DNA from: Gammaproteobacteria bacterium
GTDB taxonomy: Bacteria > Pseudomonadota > Gammaproteobacteria > Pseudomonadales > Azotimanducaceae
NCBI GenBank assembly: GCA_002728675.1
Contig: PBVL01000029.1
Coordinates: 10,446-54,480 of the forward strand
DNA length: 44,035 bases
Direction: 5' to 3'
The translations under genes were made by a program, and so were the position numbers. Positions 36,485 to 38,811 of this stretch are shown here, one piece after another. The notes under the pieces were generated by a model that saw only the letters and a list, made by a program, of their open reading frames with translations, was not told the origin of the DNA and did no database searches. Position 1 is the stretch's first letter, and each line of letters starts with the position of its first letter.

Positions 36485-37159
36485 TCAGATGCCCTTCGCG
36501 TCCAGCCACTCCGCGGCGACGCGTGCCGCCTCGACGTAAATGTCCTCGGCGTCCTTGCGCGTGCGCTTCAGGATTTTGAAGCTGTGGTCGCCGGTAAAGA
36601 GCCTGTGCACCGTCGCCTCGCCGACGTTTTCGAGGGCCGCGGCCAGTTGGTCTTCCTCGGCCATATTGTCACGCGTTCCGGAGAGAAACAGCATGGGCTG
36701 CGTGACGTCGGGCAGGTGCGCAGCACGCTTGATCGACGGTTTGCCGGGCATATGCAGCGGGAACGAGAAGAACACGAGACCGGCAACGTCGGAGAGCGAC
36801 GGTTCGAGCACCGCGTGAGAGGCCATCCTTCCTCCGAACGAGTGGCCCCCAAGCAGCAGCGGCTTGCCCCTGGCGCGGGTCCGGCCGGCTTCCGCAACGG
36901 CGGCATAGACCGCGCTGCATACCTCGACACGATCCGTTCGGTTCTTGCCGAGTTCCATGTAGGGGAAATGGAAGCGCAGCACCGCGACGCCGCGCTCGTT
37001 GAGTGCGGCCGTGATCGAGGCCATGTGGCCATGGTTCATACCAGCGCCGGCGCCGTGACCGAGCACGATCAGCGCGCGGGACTCGGCAGGTGCATCGAAG
37101 ACGGCGGATACCAACTCGACGTCGCCGACATCCACCGGAATGGACAGAGCTTCACTCAT
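36485..37159 (-). CDS. Alpha/beta hydrolase, KANL3/Tex30-like family
   Basis: The 224-residue cytoplasmic protein has IVLGHGAGAGMNHGHM (oxyanion region, about 31-46) and VLRFHFPYMELGKNRTDR. LLLGGHSFGGRMASH carries the nucleophile Ser at about 107, LFLSGTRDNMA the acid region, and FTGDHSFKILKRTRKDAEDIY the catalytic His. GHGAGAGMNH, HFPYM and GDHSFK are signatures of the Tex30/KANL3-like dienelactone-hydrolase branch. The substrate is unknown; esterase or thioesterase activity is possible. It lies directly downstream of the broken anti-sigma gene, 28 bases after its stop. Confidence 0.85.
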   Translation of the reverse strand: MSEALSIPVDVGDVELVSAVFDAPAESRALIVLGHGAGAGMNHGHMASITAALNERGVAVLRFHFPYMELGKNRTDRVEVCSAVYAAVAEAGRTRARGKPLLLGGHSFGGRMASHAVLEPSLSDVAGLVFFSFPLHMPGKPSIKRAAHLPDVTQPMLFLSGTRDNMAEEDQLAAALENVGEATVHRLFTGDHSFKILKRTRKDAEDIYVEAARVAAEWLDAKGI

Positions 37160-37187
37160 TGGGGGTATCCCCTGAGAGTCATACGCC

Positions 37188-37833
37188 TCAGAATACTATC
37201 CGTGCCCGGAAGTCCGCAGCAATTGCGTGCATCGTCCCCGCGTGCGCCCGGGCATCGGTGATGACGGCGACCTGTCCATGGCCGTGCTGCGTCAGCACAC
37301 CGTGCCAGCGTCCGCTCGCGAAGCGGGAGGCAGGGCCTGTCGCGTCGGGCAGGAGCATCACCGTGTACTGGCCTTCCGCGGTCTCGATCCCGAAATGGGC
37401 GGCCAGCTGGCCGTCGATCACGCAGTTCGAGGCGTAGACCACCCGCGGCAGTGCCGCGTCGGCGTGCAACAGACGGGCGCCGGACTGGGCCACCGTGTAC
37501 GCCAGCTGGCTGTCGTCGATGGTACCGGACTTGCCGTGCACCTGGTGTACTTCGTTTTCGATATGGTCGACCAGCGTTTCGGCAAAGGCGGGCTCGCGTA
37601 CGACTACGGCGATCGTCAGAACCGTGACCGCTCGTACGGAGCATGATGCGAGCCGCCAGTCCTTCCGGCACCGGGACGTCAAGCGCGCGTTCGATTTCGG
37701 CATCGAGGGCCGCAAGCTCACCCGCGAATCGACGGCAGGCGTCACACGCGGCGGCGTGTTCGGCAAGTGCCGGTTCGGTTCGCGCGAGGCGAGGATCGGC
37801 CAACGCCTCACGGCGGAAATCCAGGCAGTTCAC
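37188..37833 (-). pseudogene. DUF3379-type anti-sigma factor disrupted by a frameshift/deletion
   Basis: The N-terminal part, from ATG 37833, reads MNCLDFRREALADPRLARTEPALAEHAAACDACRRFAGELAALDAEIERALDVPVPEGLAARIMLRT. It holds a zinc-finger-like anti-sigma motif (HAAACDAC) and the V-PEGLA-RI--R block of DUF3379 proteins. Past this point the frame runs into Arg-rich nonsense. A second frame supplies the rest: VTVLTIAVVVREPAFAETLVDHIENEVHQVHG through FGIETAEGQYTVMLLPDATG to FRARIVF at 37188. The break is near 37630-37660, at the membrane helix, which is also shorter than normal. An intact protein would sit in the inner membrane and hold the sigma factor. The start overlaps the sigma stop by four bases (ATGA). 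Confidence 0.7.
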
Positions 37834-38336
37834 GAGACATCCTTCTGGTCCGCGGTCAACGTGGCGCGGAGCTTCTGGCGTGCCCTGTGCAGCCGTGTCG
37901 CGACGGTGTTGCGCGGCAGCTCGAAGACCGCCGCAATGTCGTCCAGGCTGAACCCCTGCAGCACCCGCAGCACGAGAGGCTCACGGTACTTGGGCGGCAA
38001 CTGGCGCATGGCATGCCGCAGGGCGAGCGTCTCTGGGCGGGGGTCGAAGTCGACGGCCTCAGAGGGAATCGCATCAAGCTCGGCTTCCGCCATCGAGAGT
38101 CGCCTGCGCTCGTACCTGCGGGCGTTCTCGCGCCGCAGGATCGTCGTCAGCCAACTCCTGGCGGAGCCCTCGTCCTGCAGCGCATCGAGGAATCGCCATG
38201 CCCGCAGGAAGGTCTCCTGCACGAGGTCTTCCGCGGCACTTCGATCACTCGTGAACCAGTAGGCGTAGCGGTACAGCCAACTGCTGTAGGCGTTGACCAG
38301 TTGTTCGAATCGAGCGTCTTTCTGCATGGTCTGCAT
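37830..38336 (-). CDS. ECF-type RNA polymerase sigma factor (RpoE-like)
   Basis: The 168-residue protein has sigma region 2 (FEQLVNAYSSWLYRYAYWFTSDRSAAEDLVQETFLRAWRFLDAL). This includes the DLVQETFLRAW core that melts the -10 element. Region 4 follows (LPPKYREPLVLRVLQGFSLDDIAAVFELPRNTVATRLHRARQKLRATL), a helix-turn-helix that reads the -35. There is no region 3 and no extra domain. The start is ATG 38336 or the ATG nine bases later; neither has a clear Shine-Dalgarno. It is coupled to the broken DUF3379 anti-sigma gene, so its activity may be unrestrained. A candidate autoregulatory promoter lies directly upstream. Confidence 0.9.
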   Translation of the reverse strand: MQTMQKDARFEQLVNAYSSWLYRYAYWFTSDRSAAEDLVQETFLRAWRFLDALQDEGSARSWLTTILRRENARRYERRRLSMAEAELDAIPSEAVDFDPRPETLALRHAMRQLPPKYREPLVLRVLQGFSLDDIAAVFELPRNTVATRLHRARQKLRATLTADQKDVS

Positions 38337-38364
38337 AGACCGGCGCCGCGTGACGGATGTTTCA
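38336..38364 (-). promoter_or_regulatory. Candidate ECF-type promoter upstream of the sigma gene
   Basis: On the minus strand TGAAAC (38364-38359) is followed after 18 bases by GTCTA (38340-38336), resembling the AAC-rich -35 and GTCTA/TCTGA -10 of RpoE-type sigma factors. The -35 overlaps the stop codon of the upstream unknown gene. The -10 abuts the first ATG, so the transcript would start near the second ATG (38327). This hints at a leaderless message or at the second ATG being the real start. No experimental support is available here. Confidence 0.35.
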
Positions 38365-38811
38365 CGGTGACGCGCACGGCATTTGCAGGCGGCGGTGCCA
38401 GCCGGTGGCGCCGGGCTCCGTCAGGTCAACGCGCCAGATTGGCCGACGTGTGTGTGCCTTCTCCGTGGCTACAACGCGCAGGTCCGGCAGGGACAGACCA
38501 AGAACCGCGCTGACGGCAGAGGCTGCAACGCCGAGCGCCTCGACCTCTGCAGCCTTGCGCGTCAGGTCGCAGTAGTCGCTGCGTATGTTGCGCAGGAAGA
38601 CGCGGGCGGGCTCGGTTGCAAGTTCCGATACGGTGTAAACCCGCTCCTGGAGGTGTTTGCCCGCCCAGTCGAGGAGGTTGAGCAGCGCGTGTTGACCGCA
38701 GCTGCATTCAGCGATGGCATCCGTGACGCCGTCATGGGCGTCGATCACGAAGACCAGCGGAAGCGTTTCGCCAACGCAGTTCCAGGCATGGCGTTGGTGC
38801 GTCTCAGCCAA
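38362..38811 (-). CDS. Hypothetical protein between FMN reductase and sigma factor genes
   Basis: The 149-residue protein is not recognised. It begins at a TTG that overlaps the FMN reductase 3' end by eight bases, which suggests coupling. The N-terminal half is compact, with LPLVFVIDAHDGVTDAIAECSCGQHALLNLLDWAGKHL, where a Cys-x-Cys-Gly-x-His cluster could bind metal. The middle is helical (YCDLTRKAAEVEALGVAASAVSAVLGLSL). The end has IWRVDLTEPGATGWHRRLQMP. No signal peptide or membrane span is seen. The coding assignment rests on gene order, absence of a competing ORF and the coupled start; it is less certain than its neighbours. Confidence 0.6.
   Translation of the reverse strand: MAETHQRHAWNCVGETLPLVFVIDAHDGVTDAIAECSCGQHALLNLLDWAGKHLQERVYTVSELATEPARVFLRNIRSDYCDLTRKAAEVEALGVAASAVSAVLGLSLPDLRVVATEKAHTRRPIWRVDLTEPGATGWHRRLQMPCASP

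Follow-up and report, generated by a model that had tools for sequence, protein, structure and literature searches.

Does this locus carry an intact ECF sigma factor gene beside a genuinely broken membrane anti-sigma gene, and if so, what would that mean for the sigma factor? The stretch of DNA analyzed (44,035 nucleotides; hereinafter the window) comes from contig C62 of a draft genome that totals 4.66 Mb over 252 contigs, a metagenome bin that is 91% complete and 7.6% contaminated. On its minus strand lies a gene for an ECF sigma factor, followed by a gene for a DUF3379 (PF11859) anti-sigma factor and a hydrolase gene. The features on which the argument turns, all on the minus strand and given in the direction of transcription, are:

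38336–38364 (–): ECF-type promoter TGAAAC-N18-GTCTA, with the -35 at 38359–38364 and the -10 at ~38336–38340 (pattern found once in the window; family motif)
37830–38327 (–): ECF sigma factor, 165 aa, intact (Pfam, NCBIfam, 62–69% identity to family homologs)
37637–37833 (–): N-terminal half of the anti-sigma gene, a zinc anti-sigma domain in frame from the GTG at 37833 (PF11859, profile of relatives, motif, RsiW match)
37605–37640 (–): junction, with a frame change and ~56–70 nt (2 mod 3) missing (anchor span, codon-usage swap)
37188–37615 (–): C-terminal half, a membrane-helix remnant and periplasmic sensor domain in the other frame, with its stop codon at 37188–37190 (PF11859, profile of relatives)
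37156–37833 (–): the ORF actually read from the anti-sigma start, 225 aa, comprising the zinc domain and a 159-residue out-of-frame tail (ORF list)
36485–37159 (–): alpha/beta hydrolase (Abhydrolase_11), the next gene after the anti-sigma gene (Pfam, synteny)

Sigma factor gene and promoter

The sigma factor is intact, as the initial annotation had stated: its product shows sigma regions 2 and 4 only (Pfam Sigma70_r2, E = 8e-17; Sigma70_r4_2, E = 4e-18) and belongs to the PRK12517 subfamily (201.2 bits against an NCBIfam cut-off of 197). The annotated ORF extends to 38336, where its first ATG overlaps the -10 element; as the homologs begin with (M)xDKQARxxxLV, we take the second ATG, at 38327, to be the probable start. 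Accelerated evolution of the sigma factor was considered and rejected, for although its end branch is long, its relative distance of 1.13 falls within the range of the neighboring genes (1.05–1.22). The two genes share the four-base overlap noted earlier, GTGA, in which the GTG start of the anti-sigma gene (37833–37831) runs into the TGA stop of the sigma gene (37832–37830). Several genomes share the upstream neighbors (a Zn-ribbon protein, a thiolase and a phosphoesterase) and the downstream alpha/beta hydrolase, which follows the operon in six genomes besides this one, and this synteny indicates that the locus is orthologous among them. Just upstream of the sigma gene there is also an unnamed conserved protein of 149 aa (38362–38811, minus strand) that belongs to no Pfam family and has homologs in the corresponding position in five further genomes.

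The ECF-like motif that had been reported directly upstream of the sigma gene is indeed present, and ends 8 nt before the probable start codon. Taken alone, the exact TGAAAC-N18-GTCTA lies close to what chance would give (0.30 expected per window after shuffling). Across the family, the pattern [GT]GAA[TA]-N16-20-GGTC occupies the same position before 16 of the 19 homologous sigma genes against a shuffled mean of 0.14, figures that are descriptive because the pattern was drawn from the very sequences in which it was counted; one relative (G188) has the same TGAAAC-N18-GTC form. The proposed search for the motif elsewhere in the genome added little, with two exact matches against one for the reversed control and, in a regulon search, no genome-wide match to the family form GGAATATT. 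Judged by the sequences, the operon is probably autoregulated, its promoter being recognized by its own sigma factor. In most of the family the -10 element lies ~8–10 nt before the sigma start codon (window positions 38327–38364; upstream regions of L005–L011), a short distance that suggests that the sigma mRNA may be leaderless or nearly so. A perfect inverted repeat, GGTCT-ATGC-AGACC, spans the -10 element and the first ATG at 38328–38341 and is not evident in the homologs.

A DUF3379 gene in two frames

Searches with PF11859 matched the anti-sigma gene in two pieces, model positions 1–83 in the frame of the start codon and 60–220 in the next frame. As these score 64.9 and 43.1 bits, each above the curated cut-off of 33.2 bits, both the zinc-finger-like start and the C-terminal sensor half are recognizable, as the initial annotation had it. 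A profile built from 17 relatives likewise placed the N half (E = 1e-24) and the C half (E = 8e-34) in different frames. Codon-usage scores learnt from the neighboring genes favor the first frame to ~37640 and the second from ~37610, which puts the swap at ~37605–37640. The change of frame claimed for the membrane-helix region is thus located there, but it is no slip of a single base. Alignment with DUF3379 homologs, which had been suggested as a way of sizing the missing segment, shows that the span from the end of the LAAR motif to a conserved periplasmic histidine measures 82 nt (1 mod 3) in the window and 138–189 nt (median 147) in the 17 relatives; accordingly, roughly 56–70 nt are missing, a length that the frames require to be 2 mod 3. 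The missing stretch covers the positively charged linker and the first half of the membrane helix.

The N half retains the zinc motif H-x3-C-x2-C, seen both by motif and in the alignment, and its profile matches the RsiW zinc domain solved in complex with SigW (5wuq; E = 2e-4); this motif and the homology to a solved structure identify it as a zinc class I anti-sigma domain (ZAS). The 159-residue tail that follows it in the actual ORF carries a net charge of +30 and contains no membrane helix (best 19-residue Kyte–Doolittle hydropathy of the ORF 0.68, against 1.37–2.72 in the 17 relatives), so that the transmembrane helix in frame with the zinc domain that marks a membrane anti-sigma factor is absent from this product. 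That such a tail should stay open over its length is expected by chance in 4–16% of cases. The one continuous frame through zinc domain, helix and sensor that typifies DUF3379 proteins is likewise lacking at the window locus; going by its sequence, the gene is a damaged one and not a working member of the family. PF11859 occurs at this single locus, with no other copy of the gene and no duplicated locus in the genome, and a contig scan with the C half as query returned one distant match only.

Lesion, assembly error and decay of the operon

The gene was sought in two genome samples, of the family (207 genomes) and of the order (392 genomes), and was found in 18 and 23 of them, respectively, with the window genome counted in both. 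In every one of the 38 other genomes that have it, the match runs in a single frame, and the split is confined to the window genome. Homologs with the same short helix in frame, which had been named as the finding that would speak against a break, were looked for and none was seen: a hydrophobic helix is present in every relative examined.

Both halves of the window gene keep most of their strongly conserved columns (17/19 in the N half and 10/12 in the C half), within the range of the intact relatives. As the halves and the sigma factor are as conserved as elsewhere, either the break is recent or it is an error of assembly. In the latter case the organism would possess an intact gene from which the consensus has lost a stretch, for instance through a mixture of strains or at a GC-rich spot of low coverage. 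The source being a draft metagenome bin with 7.6% contamination, the lack of decay in either half or in the sigma factor, and the single frame in every other genome are all consistent with such an artifact. We nevertheless regard it as rather unlikely, given that the site offers no repeat or second copy that could confuse an assembler, that the junction lies mid-contig and at no homopolymer, and that the Pfam match is neither split nor truncated in any of 20 further window genes scanned, which argues against a general frameshift problem in the sequence. Artifacts seldom remove ~60 nt from unique sequence. An error that deleted so much from a unique, mid-contig site would be atypical, and for this reason we hold with reasonable confidence that the lesion is real. 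That the gene is functional after all, with programmed frameshifting or a separate start yielding both halves, appears very improbable: both frames are open over a long distance, but chance alone would leave a second frame open at the rate given above, and even an exact shift would leave the segment between the anchors ~20 residues shorter than in every relative. Moreover, the RNA structure at the junction is ordinary (z = +1.18), and no ATG, GTG or TTG was seen near the junction in the frame of the C half.

The best explanation, to which we assign a probability of about 0.6, is accordingly that an ECF sigma/DUF3379 operon with probable autoregulation recently lost ~56–70 nt by a deletion that broke the frame, linker and helix of the anti-sigma factor; we infer that this lesion is present in the organism and not in the assembly alone.

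The operon is patchily distributed (18/207 family genomes), and the sigma gene carries stop codons in the operons of two of the 17 relatives, both of one genus. In one of these (G045; L011/L014/L045) the sigma gene has two in-frame TAG codons and the anti-sigma gene one TAA; in the other (G179; L030/L049) the sigma gene has one TAA and the anti-sigma gene is intact. As the stops fall at different codons, the two represent independent decay on the sigma side. Recoding of TAG in G045 was considered and rejected, as neighboring conserved genes on its contig are free of in-frame TAG and both genomes also carry TAA. A patchy operon that is damaged elsewhere as well suggests, at the sequence level, a dispensable system that has been lost repeatedly; with stops in the sigma genes of two relatives, the likeliest reading of the break in the window is as a stage in the repeated decay of a dispensable regulon. 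A further relative (G029; L013/L051, G029:C33) has a second, diverged sigma copy with no recognizable DUF3379 gene downstream, a possible orphan sigma factor.

Consequences for the sigma factor and known counterparts

By analogy with other pairs of ECF sigma and membrane anti-sigma factors, the zinc domain would normally hold the sigma factor at the membrane, and the periplasmic half would sense envelope stress, whereupon proteolysis would free the sigma factor. After the break, the sensor would be severed from the zinc domain and control over the sigma factor lost; the remaining product would at best be a soluble zinc domain carrying a foreign tail, and it is probably unstable. The initial annotation had concluded that the sigma factor would be constantly active. 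Its picture of a broken anti-sigma gene beside an intact sigma gene with an ECF-type promoter holds, but with the zinc domain intact, constant activity is one of three outcomes compatible with the sequence: the sigma factor may be on, it may be off, or the operon may be dead. Activation is plausible because frameshifted mucA alleles activate AlgU (PMC6546240, PMC3750012), and the stops in the sigma genes of two relatives mean that the operon may simply be dying.

The opposite outcome, in which the soluble zinc domain left by the break still binds the sigma factor and locks it off, draws on the fact that this domain is whole and in frame from its proper start codon, with the conserved columns noted above. 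Its best solved relative is itself a soluble RsiW domain of 80 residues bound to SigW (5wuq), and 35% of class I anti-sigma domains, about a third, are naturally soluble (PMC7406223, PMC8999054). Against this, the long, highly charged tail would likely cause degradation, and the mucA allele CF1003M, which encodes 59 native and 35 foreign residues, is still mucoid (PMC3750012). We consider such a locked state unlikely, though a serious rival to activation, and partial or full release of the sigma factor somewhat more likely than permanent inhibition. Bolder still is the idea that the lesion is fixed in the lineage and has turned a membrane sensor into a soluble, sensor-less zinc anti-sigma factor (or none), so that the set point of the sigma factor has shifted for good, within a family whose operon has been broken repeatedly on either side; we judge this quite improbable.

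Under the preferred reading of a real deletion, the lesion belongs to a well-known type of regulatory damage, and the pair that it affects is an ordinary one. Its closest precedent is algU/mucA of Pseudomonas aeruginosa (mucA22 and others; PMC6546240, PMC3750012), whose mutants share with the window an intact ECF sigma gene followed by a frame-disrupted membrane anti-sigma gene. They differ in that mucA22 arose by loss of one base, retains 143 native residues and is favored by selection during chronic infection, whereas the window gene lost its ~56–70 nt at the helix itself; its zinc domain is also of another family than that of MucA. With the DUF3379 anti-sigma factors encoded beside PRK12517-type sigma factors, the window gene has in common the sequence family, gene order, four-base overlap, promoter motif and downstream hydrolase, and differs from those of the 38 other genomes in the two samples in being the only one split. 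RsiW of Bacillus subtilis resembles it in the zinc anti-sigma domain and is in its full form a membrane anti-sigma factor; unlike the window protein it is intact, and its sensor half is unrelated in sequence. A search of one literature library found no paper on DUF3379.

If real, the lesion would parallel, in a natural environment, the mucA lesions known from clinical Pseudomonas, and would allow one to ask whether loss of the sensor in the wild means activation, silencing or decay of the regulon. The family comparison, for its part, yields a family promoter that can be tested, and it assigns the DUF3379 proteins to the zinc anti-sigma factors, with a sensor in the periplasm. AlphaFold modeled the sensor half of the window gene (37191–37586) with a pLDDT of 88.8 and the anti-sigma factor of an intact relative with a pLDDT of 81.6. 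For both models the leading PDB matches are RseB/MucB (weak E of 0.006–0.1, TM up to 0.5); these make up eight of the nine top matches of the window model (probability 0.96–1.00, weak E of 0.02–0.12, TM 0.43–0.50). An hhalign comparison of the sensor half with MucB_RseB_C (25 RseB C-terminal domains) gave a probability of 0.1%, that is, no sequence-profile homology, and the source genome also encodes an RseB of its own. Going by the predicted folds, the DUF3379 sensor half is perhaps an RseB-like sensor fused to the anti-sigma factor.
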